NCBI RefSeq assembly: GCF_002162315.1
Contig: NZ_CP021416.1
Coordinates: 2,430,207-2,494,206 of the forward strand
Source: Sulfurospirillum diekertiae
GTDB lineage: Bacteria > Campylobacterota > Campylobacteria > Campylobacterales > Sulfurospirillaceae
DNA: 64,000 bases
Direction: 5' to 3'
Under the pieces are notes generated by a model, which was not told the origin of the DNA, did no database searches, and was given only the letters and a program-made list of their open reading frames with translations. Both the position numbers and the translations under genes were made by a program. Positions 28,942 through 48,456 of the stretch are shown piece after piece; the stretch's first letter is position 1, and each line of letters opens with the position of its first letter.

Positions 28942-29279
28942 GCAAATTTATTTGCGTACACTTCTTCATCAAAGCCAACCAAAAGCGCTCCATCTTCACA
29001 CTCAACGATGGGGCGTTTAAAAAGCAGTTGCTCTCTTAAAAGCCACATTTTTTTCTCTTCCTCACTGATCTCTTTACTCAAGCCCAAAGTTTTAAACTTC
29101 GTTCCTTTGGTATTGAAGATCACCGACATGGGTTGCTTACTGAGCCACTCTTTAAGTTTTGCTTCACTGATCTGCGTGCTTTTAAGATCAACAAAAGTAT
29201 AAGGAACAACCTTCGCTTTAAAAAAAGCAATTGCTTTTTTGACACTACCACAGGTAGTGATGCCATAGACTTTAATCAT
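28938..29279 (-). CDS. ArsC/Spx-family thioredoxin-fold protein
   Basis: 113 aa. MIKVYGITTCGSVKKAIAFF has a single active-site Cys (CGSVKK) rather than CxxC, as in the Spx/MgsR and YffB branches of the ArsC family. YTFVDLKSTQIS, LLFKRPIVECEDGALLVGFDEEVY is the family C-terminal pattern. It could be a glutathione- or thiol-dependent reductase, or a redox regulator. It overlaps the GGDEF gene by 4 bp (ATGA). Confidence 0.85.
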   Translation of the reverse strand: MIKVYGITTCGSVKKAIAFFKAKVVPYTFVDLKSTQISEAKLKEWLSKQPMSVIFNTKGTKFKTLGLSKEISEEEKKMWLLREQLLFKRPIVECEDGALLVGFDEEVYANKFA

Positions 29280-40853: not shown

Positions 40854-42173
40854 ATGGGTGTTGAACTCCACAAAGATTTATTAAGCAGTATTGGTGTTGA
40901 CGTTGAGCGTCATGCAAAGATGATGGGTATGGGACTTGCAGGCTATCAAGCGGGTTTCATGAGCCAACCCAATCGCCCCAAAGCGATGGCCTATTTTGAC
41001 TGGTTTATGAGCGAAATCCAAGCAGAACGCATTGCTGAGATTAATGCGCTCAAAGCGCAAAAAAAACCTGCGGTGGGAACGTTTTGTATCTTCGTTCCTG
41101 AAGAGATTGTTGTAGGTGCTGGCGGAGCGTGTTTTGGGCTGTGTGGCGGAGCCAATCCTCCCATCGCTGATGCCGAAACCGAACTGCCTCGTAACATCTG
41201 CCCTCTCATCAAATCAGCCTACGGCTTTAAACTCCAACACACCTGTGCGTATACCCAATCAGCCGATTTTATCTACGGTGAAACCACCTGTGAAGCGAAG
41301 AAAAAGACATGGGAACTTTTGGGAAAACATCACCCTGTGCATGTCATGAACATTCCACACATGAAACGCGAGAAAGATCTTAAAATGTGGCAAGAAGAGA
41401 TCAAAGAGTTTAAAGAGCACATCGAAGAGGTGACGGAGAAAAAACTTAGCCTTCAAGAGATGTTAAACGGTGTCAAACTTATCAACGCAAAACGTGACGC
41501 GATGAAACGCCTTGACACGCTTCGCGGTATGCATCCAGACATCATGCCTATCAGCGGTAAAGACGCACTTTTCATCAGCCAAATGAGCTTCTTAGATGAC
41601 CCGAAACGCTTTACACAGAAAGTGAATGAACTCTGTGATGAACTTGATGAGCGCATCAAAGAAAAAGTGAGCGTTTTCCCTGAAAACACCCCTCGCATCA
41701 TGGTTTTGGGTACGCCTATCGCGCCACCAAACTGGAAACTTCACACGGCGGTTGAAGGCTCAGGTGCATGCATCATCAATGAAGAAGGCTGCATCGGTCA
41801 TCGTTACTTTAAAGACAATGTGGACATTGAAGGAGTACAAAGCGAAGACGAACTCTATGCCCGTTTGATGCAACGCTATTCTAAAATCGACTGTGCGTGT
41901 TTCACTCCAAACACAGGCAGAACCGATAAAATCGTTCAAATGTACAAAGACCGCAAAGCCGATGGTGTCATCTACTACACCCTCTCATTTTGCCATACGT
42001 ACAATGTTGAGTCCCACCTTGTGACTGAAGCACTCGCCAAAGAAGGTATCCCGTGCCTCGTCATCGAGTCTGATTATTCACCTGAAGATGCAGGGCAGAT
42101 CAAAACCCGCGTTGAAGCCTTTTTGGAGAGCATCACGTTTAAACAAAAAGCCGAAGCGTTCGCAAACAAATAA
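40854..42173 (+). CDS. 2-hydroxyacyl-CoA dehydratase D-like / double-cubane cluster protein
   Basis: 439 aa, HgdB/YjiM family. Cys-rich signature segments GGACFGLCGGANPP, RNICPLIKSAYG, HTCAYTQSADF, ETTCEAKKK and later CACFTPN, SFCHTYNVES supply iron-sulfur ligands. Stand-alone members paired with a single activase belong to the double-cubane [8Fe-9S] cluster protein group, which performs ATP-driven reduction of small molecules in described cases. No acyl-CoA transferase or second dehydratase subunit is next to it, which argues against a classical hydroxyacyl-CoA pathway. The activase starts one base before its stop ends. Confidence 0.85.
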   Translation: MGVELHKDLLSSIGVDVERHAKMMGMGLAGYQAGFMSQPNRPKAMAYFDWFMSEIQAERIAEINALKAQKKPAVGTFCIFVPEEIVVGAGGACFGLCGGANPPIADAETELPRNICPLIKSAYGFKLQHTCAYTQSADFIYGETTCEAKKKTWELLGKHHPVHVMNIPHMKREKDLKMWQEEIKEFKEHIEEVTEKKLSLQEMLNGVKLINAKRDAMKRLDTLRGMHPDIMPISGKDALFISQMSFLDDPKRFTQKVNELCDELDERIKEKVSVFPENTPRIMVLGTPIAPPNWKLHTAVEGSGACIINEEGCIGHRYFKDNVDIEGVQSEDELYARLMQRYSKIDCACFTPNTGRTDKIVQMYKDRKADGVIYYTLSFCHTYNVESHLVTEALAKEGIPCLVIESDYSPEDAGQIKTRVEAFLESITFKQKAEAFANK

Positions 42174-42931
42174 TGTTTTGGGGCGTAGATATAGGCTCAA
42201 CCTATACAAAAATTATCGGAATCGGAAGAGAGAAGGAGATCACCCATCATGTGGTGATCCCGACCATTTTTAACCAAGACGTCATCGTAGGTGAGTATTT
42301 GGCTGACAAAGAGGTCAAAATGCTCGTCGCCACGGGTTATGGGCGGCATATGCTAGGAGACTCACATGGCGCTCCCGTCATCTCCGAGATCAAAGCCCAC
42401 GCCAAAGGGGCGTACTTCTTTCACAATGAAGTCAAGACCGTCATCGACCTTGGCGGACAAGACAGCAAAGTCATCAAAATGGGTGACAATGGTGGATTTA
42501 CTGACTTTCGCATGAACGATAAGTGTGCGGCAGGTACAGGAAAATTTCTCGAAATTGCTGCGAATCGTTTAGGGCTTGATATGCAAACCTTCGCCAACGC
42601 AGGGTTTGAGCACGACAAAGAGCTGACTATATCAAGTATGTGCGCCGTTTTTGCCGAGTCGGAGGTCATCTCACTCATCGCTAAAAAAGAGAGTTTAGCC
42701 AACATCTGCTACGGCGTCCACGAATCCATCGCCTCACGTTTGGCTTCGATGGCTAAAAAATTTGTCGTCAAAGAAAATGACTGCATCGTCTTTACTGGTG
42801 GTGGAGCACTCAACCCTTTTTTACATCACATGTTAGAACTTAAACTTGAACGCAAAATTCTCGTGCCTGAACATCCGCAACTCATCGGTGCTGTGGGTGC
42901 GGCACTTTCGGGGTTTGAAGTGGTGAATTAG
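42173..42931 (+). CDS. Dehydratase activase / DCCP reductase (ASKHA ATPase)
   Basis: 252 aa. ASKHA ATPase motifs FWGVDIGSTYTKIIGIG, VIDLGGQDSKVIKMG and VFTGGGALNP are present. The two cysteines that hold the dimer-bridging [4Fe-4S] cluster are in NDKCAAGTGKF and SSMCAVFAESEV. It hydrolyses ATP to push low-potential electrons into the partner protein encoded just upstream. Its ATG overlaps the upstream stop by one base (TAATG). A short terminator hairpin follows. Confidence 0.93.
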   Translation: MFWGVDIGSTYTKIIGIGREKEITHHVVIPTIFNQDVIVGEYLADKEVKMLVATGYGRHMLGDSHGAPVISEIKAHAKGAYFFHNEVKTVIDLGGQDSKVIKMGDNGGFTDFRMNDKCAAGTGKFLEIAANRLGLDMQTFANAGFEHDKELTISSMCAVFAESEVISLIAKKESLANICYGVHESIASRLASMAKKFVVKENDCIVFTGGGALNPFLHHMLELKLERKILVPEHPQLIGAVGAALSGFEVVN

Positions 42932-42935
42932 TTTT

Positions 42936-42945
42936 TTACATGTAA
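42936..42945. repeat. Iterated palindrome TTACATGTAA, intergenic
   Basis: Begins 5 bp after the activase stop codon, just before its terminator. Confidence 0.88.
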
Positions 42946-42948
42946 TCC

Positions 42949-42969
42949 AAAAGTGAATCACTTTTTTTT
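42949..42969 (+). terminator. Intrinsic terminator of the dehydratase operon
   Basis: AAAAGTG-AAT-CACTTTT stem followed by a continued T run, about 18 bp after the activase stop. Confidence 0.7.
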
Positions 42970-43060
42970 GACACATACTTCGAAAACTTAAATAACGTAT
43001 CATCGTCGTAAATGAGGTAAATTTGTGAAGTATCCTCTAGTACAGCGCAGTTTATTGATG

Positions 43061-43090
43061 TTCGATAGCTTTACATGTAAAGCTATCGAA
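43061..43090. repeat. 30-bp perfect palindrome centred on TTTACATGTAAA
   Basis: TTCGATAGCT-TTACATGTAA-AGCTATCGAA is identical on both strands over all 30 bases. It lies between the dehydratase operon and the TonB receptor 3' end. Neither side has a T run, so a simple terminator is unlikely. It contains one copy of the iterated 12-mer (43070-43081). Confidence 0.95.
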
Positions 43091-43118
43091 GTGTTAAATC
43101 ATTTCATTGTTACTTAAC

Positions 43119-45216
43119 TTAAAACTTGACTTCTATCGAAGCGGTAACATTTCGGCCATCCCCTAAAAACAGTGTTGTCGTACCTGCTGCTGCGTCACCA
43201 TCTAAACCTGCGACATTACCAGCGTAAACACCTGCCCAATATTTTTCATTGGTAATATTATTGACAGAAAGCCTTAAAATGGTTTTGTCCCCAAATAATT
43301 GCTTCGTAATATACCTCGCGCCTAGATCTGTTGTAAAGTATGAATCTGCCCATTGTGTATTGGCAGGGTCAATCGCTCTTTTACCCGTATAGTGAAAATT
43401 ACTACTCAATACTAACTCTTTAAAACTTGGCACAGTATATTCTGCCAAAAGATTTGCTTGCCATTCTGGCATACCAATGGCTTGTTTATTATCAACATTG
43501 GCTATTTTCGCCCCCGTTATGTCGGTATCCGTATAGGTAACGCCACCAAATAATGCGACGGATTCAGCAACTTTTCCAGAAGCCATAAACTCAACACCTT
43601 GGTTGGTTTGGTCGCCTTGTATTTCATAAATACCATCATACCCTAGATAAGCCGTTGGACGTTTGATTTGAAAAAAGAGCCGCGGAGAGATCAACACGGT
43701 CTAAAGAGAGTTTAGAACCTATCTCATACTGTTTGCTACGGTACGGATCAAGAATAAACGTTTTATTTAAATACGTCACGGGATCAAACTGTTGTAAGCT
43801 GTCGGCATACGTAACATAAAAACTAAGATTTTTCAATGGTTTGTAGATCAAACTTGCCGCATAACTGTAGCCATCATTATCGATTTCACTGGTTGTAGCG
43901 CCTGTGGTAGCATACGCATCTTTATCAATCCAGCTTTTACTTGTGGAAAGAACCGTCTGCCACTGATCGTTAAGCTTAATCGTATCCGCTAATGTCAAAC
44001 TTTCTACATCGGTTGTTGAAGAGACATAGCGTCTAGAGCCATCTGCACCATAAATATCCCAACGATAACCGTTACCACCTAGGGCAAGGTCATGTTCTAA
44101 ACCCAAAAAGTTTTGCTCCGTTGTCACATATCCCATCCAACTATCAAGATCAAATCGTGCTGCCATAGGCGATACCTTAACTACGGCTGGCGTGTAAGTA
44201 CCTGCATTAGAATTAAACGTACTTGAACTAATGTACATATCCCTATCTGCTCTTTGGTTCAGATAACCTGCCTCCGCATGCCAATTATCGGCTATCTCGT
44301 ATTTGAGCTTGGTGCTGTAGGTCGTCGTCGTTATCTCTCGACCTCCATTGTTTGGTCCATACTTTTTATCGGTAGCATCAAAGGCATCTGGAAGCGTGTA
44401 TTTTGCTACGCCAAGAGCGGTATAAGGCATGAGATATGAGCCTGAATAGCCCTCTTTAATATAGTTGTAATAACTAAAGTTTGTCTCTAATGTCAAACGA
44501 TCTGTTAGATGAAAGTCCAGTCCTAAAGAGACAAGCTTTCTTCGTAAAGCACTATTGTCGACATAACCTTCACCGTCCCCCCCAATAACAACGGCTCGGT
44601 AGCCAATGGCATCATTTGCCATGCCACCTACATCTGCCATCGCTTCGCCGTATCCTTTATAACCATAGGTCATTTTTACAGTATTTTCATAATCCGCTGT
44701 AGGACGTTTACGTGTAAAACTATAAATTCCAGAGGGGGCTGTTGGACCGTAAAGAGCACCCGCAAGCCCGTTGATAATTTGTACATCATCAAACATTTCC
44801 ATAGCCGTAGCGGTAGTAGAAACGATATGCAACCCATCCCAAAAGCTATTTGCAACAACTTCTCCTCGCATTCCTCTGGTTTGGGGACGACCTAAATCTG
44901 CTCCGCCACGGTACTCTATTTGTGCAGAAGGAATGTACTTCACCACATCTTCCAAGCCCATGGCTTGACCATTTTCACTCAATTCTTTAGGAATCGTATT
45001 GATTTGATACGGTGTATCAATCGCTTTTTTCTTGCCCAATGGTCCAACAGTGACGTTTTTATCTAAGAAACCATCCGAAATACCATCGTTGTTTACCATA
45101 CTGGCTTGTATTGCCGTCGTTTCGACTGCATCTAGCTTATACACATCCGCATGCAAAGCCAATGGGAATACCACTATGGCTGCCATGACGCTTAAATTTA
45201 GCCTTTTATTGCTCAT
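43119..45216 (-). CDS. TonB-dependent siderophore-type receptor, frame interrupted
   Basis: About 698 aa reconstructed, starting at the ATG at 45216. Signal peptide about 1-23 (VMAAIVVFPLALHADV), plug domain (DTPYQINTIPKELSENGQ, VVKYIPSAQIEYRGGADLGRPQTRGMRG, INGLAGALYGPTAPSG) and a C-terminal beta-barrel ending in VTASIEVKF. The frame breaks at an A6 run (43671-43676) where FSNQTSNGL should read FQIKRPTAYLGYDGIYEIQG. One base fewer restores the whole barrel. An outer-membrane importer, probably for a ferric siderophore. A striking operator-like dyad lies upstream. Confidence 0.9.
44707..44718. repeat. One-mismatch variant TTTACGTGTAAA
   Basis: A single-base variant of the iterated palindrome within the TonB receptor gene, read as FTRK. 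Not counted in the 32. Confidence 0.4.
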
Positions 45217-45254
45217 AAATTCATCCATCCTTTTCGTTATTCTTCAAAATATAT

Positions 45255-45459: not shown

Positions 45460-46890
45460 GTGCGTACTCGAATCGAACATGATCTTATCGGCAATAAAGA
45501 GATTTCCAACGAATGTTACTATGGTGTTCAAACAGCGCGAGCTATGGAGAACTTTCACATCACAGGGGTCACACTAGGGAGTTTCCCTACCTTTCTTGAA
45601 TCCATTGCCAAAGTCAAAAAAGCGGCGGCTTTAGCCAATTATGAGTTAAACCTTCTGAGTGAAGCTAAAAAAAATGCAATTGTTGAGGCGTGCGATGCCA
45701 TCATCGCAGGTAAATTCCACGACCAATTTGTGGTCGATATGATCCAAGGAGGCGCTGGAACTTCGACCAATATGAATGCCAATGAAGTTATCGCCAACAT
45801 TGGTTTGGAGATTCTAGGGCACCAAAAAGGTGAATACAAATATCTGCATCCTAACAACGATGTTAACCTCTCACAATCGACCAATGATGCTTACCCCACA
45901 GCACTTCGTGTCGCACTCTATGAAAAATTAGGAGAGCTAACGGAGTCCATGGGCATCATCAAAAACTCGTTTGCTAAAAAAGCGAGTGAGTTCAAAGATG
46001 TCATCAAGATGGGTCGAACCCAGCTCCAAGATGCCGTACCAATGACGCTGGAGCAAGAGTTTAGAACCTACGCTGTCATGATCGGTGAAGACATGCAAAG
46101 GGTGCATGAAGCACGGCAGTTGGTACGTGAGATCAACATGGGCGCAACGGCGATTGGAACAGGCATTAATGCGCATCCTGATTATGCCAAGACAGTTGAA
46201 GCCAAACTCCAAGAGGTGACGGGACGACCGTTTGTCACAGCAGGCGATCTTATCGAAGCGACGCAAGATACAGGTGCTTACGTGCAAATCTCAGGCGTTT
46301 TAAAACGAGTAGCAACCAAAATGTCCAAAATCTGCAATGATCTCAGACTTCTAAGCTCGGGACCAAGAACAGGTTTTGGCGAGATCAATCTACCTGCGAT
46401 GCAACCAGGAAGCTCCATTATGCCCGGTAAAGTCAATCCTGTCATCCCAGAAGTCGTCAACCAAGTCTGTTTTCAAGTCATCGGTACGGACATTGCCGTG
46501 ACGATGGCGTGTGAAGCAGGACAACTGCAACTCAATGTCTTTGAGCCACTGATTGCTTACAACCTCTTCAACTCGGTCAATATGATGAAAAATGCCTTTG
46601 AAGCACTTGCATACACGTGTGTGGATGGCATTACCGCAAACAAGGAGCGCTGCAAAGCGTTGGTGCTTAATAGCATCGGTTTGGTCACTGCACTCAATCC
46701 CTATTTAGGCTACGAAAACTCCACCATCGTTGCCAAAGAGGCGTTAGAGACAGGCGGTTCTGTCTATGACATCGTTTTAGAAAAAGGTCTACTAGACAAA
46801 GAACAACTCGATGAAATTATCAAACCAGAAAATATGATCCAACCCCACAATTTCGGGCTTTCCGAAAAAAGTAAATTTAATAAAATTTAA
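45460..46890 (+). CDS. aspA: Aspartate ammonia-lyase, copy 1
   Basis: 476 aa from a GTG at 45460 (AAGGAG upstream). The nearby ATG at 45456 is out of frame. Converts aspartate to fumarate and ammonia. Fumarase/aspartase superfamily motifs: GGAGTSTNMNANEVIAN, LSQSTNDAYPTALRV, the catalytic loop GSSIMPGKVNPVIPE, plus GRTQLQDAVPMTLEQEF. Very similar to the second copy downstream but with a different tail (FGLSEKSKFNKI) and more G/C-rich codons. Supplies fumarate for anaerobic respiration. Confidence 0.93.
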   Translation: MRTRIEHDLIGNKEISNECYYGVQTARAMENFHITGVTLGSFPTFLESIAKVKKAAALANYELNLLSEAKKNAIVEACDAIIAGKFHDQFVVDMIQGGAGTSTNMNANEVIANIGLEILGHQKGEYKYLHPNNDVNLSQSTNDAYPTALRVALYEKLGELTESMGIIKNSFAKKASEFKDVIKMGRTQLQDAVPMTLEQEFRTYAVMIGEDMQRVHEARQLVREINMGATAIGTGINAHPDYAKTVEAKLQEVTGRPFVTAGDLIEATQDTGAYVQISGVLKRVATKMSKICNDLRLLSSGPRTGFGEINLPAMQPGSSIMPGKVNPVIPEVVNQVCFQVIGTDIAVTMACEAGQLQLNVFEPLIAYNLFNSVNMMKNAFEALAYTCVDGITANKERCKALVLNSIGLVTALNPYLGYENSTIVAKEALETGGSVYDIVLEKGLLDKEQLDEIIKPENMIQPHNFGLSEKSKFNKI

Positions 46891-47049: not shown

Positions 47050-48456
47050 ATGTCAACTAGAATCGAACACGATCTAATCGGTGATAAAGAAATATCAAAT
47101 GAGTGTTATTATGGCGTTCAAACTGCACGTGCAGCTGAGAACTTTCACATTACAGGAATTACACTTGAAAAATTCCCAACCTTTATTACATGCCTAGCAA
47201 AAGTTAAAAAAGCAGCAGCTCTTGCAAACCATGAGCTTGGACTTCTTGCGGAAAACAAAAAGAATGTCATTTGTGAAGCATGTGATGAGATTATTGGTGG
47301 TCAATACCATAACCAATTTGTTGTCGACATGTTCCAAGGTGGAGCAGGTACATCAACAAATATGAATGCAAACGAAGTTATTGCAAATATTGGACTTGAA
47401 AAACTAGGTCACAAAAAAGGTGAATACAAATACCTTCATCCAAATAATGATGTTAACTTGTCTCAATCTACAAATGATGCCTACCCAACGGCACTTCGTG
47501 TTGCTCTTTTTGAAAAACTCGGTGAACTTACCGTTTCTATGAGCATCATCAAAAATTCATTTGCAAAAAAAGCACTTGAGTTTAAAGATGTCATTAAAAT
47601 GGGTCGTACTCAACTTCAAGATGCTGTACCTATGACCTTAGAGCAAGAGTTTCGAACCTATGCCGTTATGATCGGTGAAGATATTCAACGTGTGATTGAA
47701 GCACAACAGTTAGTACGTGAGATGAACCTTGGTGCAACAGCGATTGGTACAGGTATCAACGCACATCCTAACTATTCAAAAATAGTCGAAGCCAAACTTC
47801 AAGAAGTAACAGGGCGTCCTTTTGTAACTGCGGGTGATCTTGTTGAAGCAACCCAAGATACAGGCGCTTATGTACAAATCTCTGGTGTTCTTAAACGTGT
47901 AGCCACCAAAATGTCAAAAATTTGTAATGACCTTCGTTTACTAAGCTCTGGTCCTAGAACTGGATTTGGCGAAATCAACCTCCCAGCAATGCAACCAGGT
48001 AGTTCTATCATGCCAGGTAAAGTCAATCCTGTTATCCCTGAAGTTGTAAACCAAGTCTGTTTCCAAGTCATTGGTACCGATGTTTCTGTTACGATGGCAT
48101 GTGAAGCGGGACAACTCCAACTAAACGTTTTTGAGCCTGTTATTGCATACAACCTTTTCACTTCTGTCAACATGATGAAAAACGCATTTGAGACACTGGC
48201 TTATACATGTGTTGATGGCATTACAGCAAATCCTGAGAGATGTAAAGAACTTGTACTTAAAAGTATTGGACTTGTTACAGCACTTAATCCATTTATCGGT
48301 TATGAAAACTCAACCTCTGTCGCTAAAGAAGCGTTAGAAACAGGTGGTTCAGTCTATGACATCGTTCTAGCACGTGGTCTTTTAGCCAAAGCAGAACTGG
48401 ATGACATCATCAAACCAGAGAACATGATTAAACCTCGTAATTACGATAAAAAATAA
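47050..48456 (+). CDS. aspA: Aspartate ammonia-lyase, copy 2
   Basis: 468 aa, AAGGAG before the ATG. All active-site motifs of copy 1 are conserved (GGAGTSTNMNANEVIAN, GSSIMPGKVNPVIPE). The proteins are alike over nearly the whole length, yet the DNA uses visibly more A/T-ending codons (CTT, GTT, CCA, GCA). This resembles a highly expressed gene. It has a 159-bp upstream gap that can hold its own promoter and is followed by a structured region and the Dcu transporter. Confidence 0.93.
   Translation: MSTRIEHDLIGDKEISNECYYGVQTARAAENFHITGITLEKFPTFITCLAKVKKAAALANHELGLLAENKKNVICEACDEIIGGQYHNQFVVDMFQGGAGTSTNMNANEVIANIGLEKLGHKKGEYKYLHPNNDVNLSQSTNDAYPTALRVALFEKLGELTVSMSIIKNSFAKKALEFKDVIKMGRTQLQDAVPMTLEQEFRTYAVMIGEDIQRVIEAQQLVREMNLGATAIGTGINAHPNYSKIVEAKLQEVTGRPFVTAGDLVEATQDTGAYVQISGVLKRVATKMSKICNDLRLLSSGPRTGFGEINLPAMQPGSSIMPGKVNPVIPEVVNQVCFQVIGTDVSVTMACEAGQLQLNVFEPVIAYNLFTSVNMMKNAFETLAYTCVDGITANPERCKELVLKSIGLVTALNPFIGYENSTSVAKEALETGGSVYDIVLARGLLAKAELDDIIKPENMIKPRNYDKK

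Follow-up and report, generated by a model that had tools for sequence, protein, structure and literature searches.

The 64,000-bp stretch of Sulfurospirillum diekertiae DNA analysed here (hereafter the window) carries on its plus strand two genes at 40854-42173 and 42173-42931, which by family resemblance we take to be a 2-hydroxyacyl-CoA-dehydratase-like pair with the activase as its second member. On the minus strand, at 43119-45228, follows a frameshifted gene, presumably for a TonB-dependent receptor, whose 192-aa and 530-aa frames overlap at 43636-43697. Between the activase stop (42931) and the 3' end of the receptor frame (43119) lies TTCGATAGCTTTACATGTAAAGCTATCGAA at 43061-43090, in which 30 of 30 bases are symmetric. 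It ends 28 bp from the receptor frame and is the longest perfect palindrome in the window, the runner-up being 22 bp long. An earlier note on this DNA had described a perfect 30-bp palindrome in the gap behind the terminator of the dehydratase operon; the symmetry and the gap were confirmed, while the supposed terminator is a weak hairpin with a T8 run at 42949-42969 on the plus strand (-3.8 kcal/mol, z -0.8), recognised by eye and not called by our scan. Just past the activase stop, at 42936-42945, there is a second copy of the iterated palindrome discussed below, which was intact in all six relatives alignable there. Folded as RNA, 43061-43090 reached -15.9 kcal/mol (z -7.2) on the minus strand and -18.0 kcal/mol (z -6.3) on the plus strand. 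A terminator scan of 42850-43250 on both strands called no site, and the GC-rich hairpin followed by a T tract that defines an intrinsic terminator was not present at 43061-43090. The Rfam search of the window returned one tRNA and nothing else. Elsewhere in the window, a 20-bp palindrome, AAAAAAGCAATTGCTTTTTT (29221-29240), resembles a bidirectional terminator.

As had been proposed, the palindrome is built around an iterated motif. In the window we counted 27 copies of its centre TTACATGTAA, a 10-mer with the core TACATGTA, where shuffled sequences gave 0.11; the whole genome (2,876,536 bp) has 1,245 copies, compared with 5 of the reversed control. The invariant 8-bp core TACATGTA (43072-43079) is found 1,416 times genome-wide (control 45), and the fuller 14-mer form CTTTACATGTAAAG (43069-43082) 232 times (control 0). 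In an 864-kb sample of the same genome, TACATGTA was observed 407 times against 16.6 expected; this ratio of 24.6 is the highest among palindromic 8-mers with more than 2 expected occurrences, the next being 2.9, and makes TACATGTA a highly iterated palindrome in the sense of a palindromic oligomer strongly over-represented genome-wide. ACATGT showed no enrichment in the window outside the 10-mer (41 in total, 27 of them within the 10-mer, 18.6 expected). One-off forms of the 10-mer were in excess at the two outermost positions (27 and 28 against fewer than 4 expected), and the eight inner positions yielded 39 against about 48 expected. Thus, near-miss copies showed no excess at internal positions, and one-off forms of the 8-mer ranked 80 of 256. 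An actual depletion of near misses, suggested by a ratio of 0.69 under a second-order model, was dropped as the ratio was ordinary under a third-order model, and our claim is therefore limited to the absence of a near-miss excess. Regular spacing of the sites was likewise rejected, the gaps between them looking random (CV 1.01).

The repeat is restricted to one bacterial family. Counts covered 60 genomes including our own, 37 from the family Sulfurospirillaceae and 23 from other families, and a motif was considered clearly enriched if it had 100 or more copies and outnumbered the reversed control at least threefold. By this definition, TACATGTA was clearly enriched in 35 of the 37 family genomes and in 0 of the 23 others. 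Within the family, G009 was marginal (109 against 50 for the control) and G026 showed no enrichment (28 against 25); across the genus, counts ranged from 109 to 1,727. The 23 genomes of other families contained 1-23 copies (control 0-43), with the largest ratio in G041 (17 against 4). A dialect form, CTACATGTAG, was counted in 41 genomes as a possible substitute in low-copy members of the genus and was rejected, since it reached 0-7 copies per genus genome; 41 copies were present in G024, the sole family member outside the genus among those counted. Additionally, the motif is scarcer in acquired DNA. Two S. diekertiae plasmids (50.4 kb) carry 5 ten-mers against 22 expected and 18 eight-mers against 25 expected, and a 60-kb region surrounding the G008 dehalogenase genes, whose products presumably include PceA, holds 14 ten-mers against 28 expected (P 0.003). 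Beside this motif-poor region, 20 kb of G008 (L342, G008:C1:1460001-1480000) contain 18 motif copies, several of them clustered within 7-9 kb.

Individual sites are also conserved in place. Comparison with six high-copy relatives gave 76 aligned window sites, of which 67 were identical (G016, 19/20; G013, 10/13; G008, 14/15; G019, 10/11; G014, 9/11; G015, 5/6), against an identity of 45, 16, 13, 12, 8, and 8% for all 10-mers in the same alignments of G016, G013, G008, G019, G014, and G015, respectively. Conservation in place hence exceeds that of the flanks, as expected of a DUS-type element. Four low-copy relatives kept 4 of 13 sites (G020, 1/6; G021, 1/3; G011, 2/3; G010, 0/1), and forms such as TTATATGTAA and TTGCACGTAA replaced the motif at window sites. 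The motif is therefore maintained in most lineages and is decaying in some. With respect to placement, 223 of the 348 sites in the 864-kb sample lie inside genes and 125 outside, at densities per kb of 0.29 in coding DNA, 1.35 in tandem gaps, 0.90 in divergent gaps, and 4.89 in convergent gaps. The corresponding values in 380 kb of G008 were 0.31, 2.50, 1.45, and 1.89; with convergent gaps below tandem ones there, the convergent peak of our genome was not repeated. Sites within genes avoid the reading phase that would give a TAA stop (phases 66, 44, and 5 of 115). Gene positions for the density and phase counts came from a home-made caller without a ribosome-site model, which skipped the 192-aa fragment of the TonB receptor.

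The long arms of the palindrome form a second layer. A perfect 30-mer around a motif copy is expected just 0.012 times per 1,245 copies, so the arms of 43061-43090 are non-random as well, in agreement with the earlier view that the symmetry exceeds chance. The arms are, however, not part of the repeat, because flank pairing beyond the 14-mer over 191 sites did not rise above the base-frequency expectation at any position; a longer genome-wide motif including the arms was rejected on this absence of covariation. The suggestion that the palindrome is a high-affinity form of the scattered site is not supported: its arms are absent from the other copies, and the genome-wide flank preference stops near CTTTACATGTAAAG. 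The outer arm TTCGATAGCT occurs within the window as the two arms alone. Long palindromes on the motif are nevertheless too frequent, as 4 of 348 sites in our sample carry one of at least 24 bp (40, 32, 30, and 24 bp) whereas permutation of the left and right flanks predicts 0.38 (p 0.0015). For G008, 0 of 168 sites had a palindrome of at least 22 bp, stretches L290-L293 having been excluded because they were fetched for known palindromes. All four palindromes of at least 24 bp follow gene 3' ends: behind a GNAT-like gene (L279), with convergent CNNM-like and cobC-like genes (L283), at the window site, and behind an AAA-ATPase gene that precedes nuoA-like genes (L032), these gene names being our assignments by resemblance. 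Two further 32-bp palindromes, in G008 and G007, likewise lie past gene ends. A Sulfurospirillum MAG has a 38-bp perfect palindrome that lacks the motif, ATCTTTAAACGGTAAAGATATCTTTACCGTTTAAAGAT (L068:8494-8531).

Orthologs of these sister loci revealed that pairing is retained through changes on both sides of the stem at the cobC, AAA-ATPase, and nuoF-like loci. Since MAFFT misplaced the arms in the cobC alignment, the comparison of arms was anchored on the core instead. At cobC the motif was present in the searched span of six of eight relatives, and in each of these six, 8-13 positions outward from the core remain paired. The stem itself differs between them: the S. diekertiae genomes have AAAAAGAGC in place of AAAGAGGC, and G008 and G012 show other closing pairs. 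TGAGTG-like arms recur at the AAA-ATPase locus in eight of nine relatives, with G-C to A-U and G-C to G-U changes, the ninth (G007) having other arms; a formal test, made at this locus only, found 72 of 72 cells paired, against a weak shuffle control in which 47 of 500 shuffles reach that value. For the nuoF-like locus (reference G008), G006 and G013 have different yet paired arms, G004 and G019 are unpaired, G012 has just a 12-bp palindrome, and three loci are without the motif. The 40-bp palindrome of the GNAT locus was absent from the three orthologous loci examined, of which two (L328 and L329) lacked the motif across the span and the third (L330) had a different 28-bp palindrome. Left out of the arm comparisons were L318 (G007, AAA locus, other arms), L334 (G012, nuoF-like locus, 12-bp palindrome) and, having no motif in the span, L331, L335, L337, L332, L327, L328, and L329. 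Some sister hairpins end in a U-rich strand. As their arms change on both sides and still pair, the sister stems appear to be 3'-end hairpins capped by the motif. The earlier description of the palindrome as no standard terminator holds for 43061-43090 itself, which has no T tract and no terminator call; the sister copies, with other arms, covary as hairpins at 3' ends.

The window locus has a different history. Our genome is 91% identical to S. diekertiae JPD-1 over 3,884 bp here, and JPD-1 has on the minus strand an intact receptor gene (702 aa), a second gene of 278 aa, and a third of 360 aa; UBA1314 (G006) has the same gene order. We take these, by resemblance, to be a TonB receptor, a SAM-methyltransferase-like gene, and a periplasmic-binding-protein gene. 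The last of them has its TAG stop at the motif in JPD-1, and the right arm contains the stop in both JPD-1 and UBA1314. The window lacks the second and third genes, its receptor gene is broken into the frames of 530 and 192 aa, and CTATCGAAG, the right arm (43083-43091, minus strand), is CTT CGA TAG reversed, matching the last codons of the relatives' periplasmic-binding-protein gene. The palindrome is therefore the edge of a deletion and one of its arms a stop-codon fossil, which partly bears out the idea of a recombination relic. CTATCGAAG occurs again 50 bp on, at 43133-43141 in the end of the receptor frame; this is possibly a microhomology tied to the two-gene deletion, or a coincidence. 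The receptor frameshift at 43636-43697, set against the single 702-aa frame of JPD-1, may be real decay or a sequencing error. The length of the palindrome at this site varies, from 30 bp in our genome through 22 bp in G006 to 14 bp in the two S. diekertiae genomes compared. A conserved RNA hairpin was not found at the window locus, where G006 has one compensatory pair and pairing is broken in both S. diekertiae genomes. Because the stem is not conserved here, a function of the window-site arms is only putative.

Taken together, we consider it fairly probable that the palindrome is a copy of a family-specific highly iterated palindrome whose flanks have here grown into a long stem, so that two converging transcription units are separated by a 3'-end hairpin tipped by the motif. 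The long stems would act in the transcripts as 3'-end hairpins, for termination or end protection, and the short palindrome may serve as a ready-made tip. The stem at the window locus would then be young or decaying, one arm probably being the stop-codon context of a gene deleted later and the other pairing fully in our own genome only; in our reading, the window copy is likely a changing or leftover 3'-end RNA hairpin. Bidirectional 3'-end hairpins and intrinsic terminators offer a parallel, in that a symmetric stem stands between convergent genes and its arms change in a compensatory manner at the sister loci; the window copy differs from them in that it has no T tract, its stem is not conserved, and its loop is an iterated palindrome. 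That it is simply the ordinary intrinsic terminator of the TonB-receptor gene we regard as quite unlikely even with a strong hairpin 28 bp past the frame end: T tract and terminator call are missing, the genome repeats the core in 1,245 places, and most sampled copies are inside genes.

The arms might instead have arisen without function, through template switching (quasi-palindrome correction) at the short palindrome. That the noncoding arm matches the coding-end arm at the window site and in G008, and that the window locus varies between 30, 22, and 14 bp among relatives, would fit such an origin, yet the stem persists in most orthologs of the cobC and AAA-ATPase loci despite altered arms, and all four palindromes of at least 24 bp lie at gene ends. 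Hence we hold this explanation to be possible and rather doubtful.

Under the preferred reading, in which the palindrome is a copy of the family repeat carrying a 3'-end stem, the motif itself would mark the whole genome for a symmetric protein that binds or modifies DNA and recognises the mark on both strands, in a HIP1- or DUS-like manner, and it would be tolerated mainly where its harm is small. A HIP-type origin would attribute the motif to an orphan D12 adenine methyltransferase of about 325 aa acting on the CATG-containing core, with repair or selection creating and keeping sites; we rate this as a tentative option. Such a gene lies beside a CheY-like gene at G000:C1:2607450-2608424 (L201:1375-2352) and has orthologs across much of the family. 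Its 3.8-kb locus has no evident restriction partner among the frames, as judged without a family search on the neighbours. Orthologs were found in 13 of 14 high-copy and one of five low-copy genus genomes (Fisher p 0.006, phylogeny ignored), whereas the other 12 family genomes displayed no link (3 of 5 high-copy, 6 of 7 low-copy; p 0.52). These tests used genomes at least 90% complete, 19 in the genus and 12 in the rest of the family, and left out G001, G003, G006, G018, and G022 of the genus (<90% complete) and G031 of the family; among the excluded genomes the ortholog is present in G003, G022, and G031, split in G006, and not found in G001 and G018. G025, with an ortholog fragment only, was scored as lacking the gene. 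Individual genomes also stand against the link: G026 has the gene and no motif excess, G017 and G027 have the motif and not the gene, and three genomes of other families (G040, G056, and G058) carry the gene alone. NCBIfam, Pfam, and PDB gave no specificity for the enzyme, and an orphan adenine methyltransferase as the cause of the repeat would be only a lead. Methyltransferases of PF01555 were rejected as the cause, being missing from most high-copy genus genomes including our own. Relatives of the D12 gene were noticed on the S. diekertiae plasmids (L340:1692-2732; L341:20001-20978), where the one on pSDIE1 appears broken into pieces.

The form of the motif, an 8-bp palindrome with palindromic extensions, is that of the HIPs described by Elhai (PMC4390886), and cyanobacterial HIP1 and the alternate HIPs share with it the hundreds to thousands of copies and the sporadic loss from lineages (PMC4390886). 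Unlike HIP1, the AT-rich TACATGTA belongs to Campylobacterota and carries 3'-end hairpins. One-off copies of HIP1 are reported to be common in many cyanobacteria and located mostly at the ends (PMC4390886), whereas no such excess was seen for TACATGTA. HIPs are also tied to orphan methyltransferases, a link that is only suggestive for TACATGTA. Sulfurospirillum goes unmentioned by Elhai (2015; PMC4390886).

A self-recognition tag for DNA uptake and recombination, as in the DUS of Neisseriaceae, is the other candidate role; we would entertain it with similar reserve, and the HIP-type and DUS-type readings carry about the same weight. To our knowledge, known uptake tags, DUS included, are not palindromic, which sets the motif apart from them. 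According to two studies (PMC3630211, PMC2397512), DUS occur at a similar density, are likewise conserved in place, favour permissive gaps and 3' ends, associate with terminator-like hairpins, and are scarce in acquired DNA, the last corresponding to our 5 against 22 on the plasmids and 14 against 28 in the dehalogenase region of G008. DUS stems are formed by inverted pairs (PMC3630211, PMC2397512), whereas in the present case a single palindromic copy caps the hairpin. The stringent conservation of the motif also fits a DUS-type role, whereas the absence of a near-miss tail does not, the reported neisserial DUS:DUS-1 ratio being about 2.4 (PMC2397512). ComEC, the sole competence gene searched, was found in 41 of 44 family genomes, the motif-poor G009, G020, and G026 included, which is of no help to the DUS-type role, and its loss was rejected as the reason for low counts. 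No paper on Sulfurospirillum competence appeared in the literature searched, and a role of the motif in uptake is putative. Speculatively, and with a probability we would put well below even, TACATGTA could serve the Sulfurospirillum family as a palindromic self-tag that a dimeric protein reads in DNA uptake, recombination, or strand-directed repair, under selection or conversion strong enough to leave no tail of near misses; decay of the tag, as in G009, G020, and others, would then follow the loss of its reader in these lineages.

The literature searched, with subscription journals mostly outside its scope and covering passages of the Sulfurospirillum papers PMC8865925 and PMC7755780 and of PMC4687349 on restriction sites, held no description of this repeat. 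Since HIP1 it has been an open question why some genomes carry a single short palindrome a thousand times over. The Sulfurospirillum repeat adds a second, unrelated case, this time from a different phylum. The group has culturable members as well as close relatives where the repeat is in decay, which allows a search for the maintaining gene and a direct test of methylation versus uptake. Finally, the window contains two adjacent, similar genes at 45460-46890 and 47050-48456, presumably lyases of the aspartate-ammonia-lyase type, which are paired in relatives as well.
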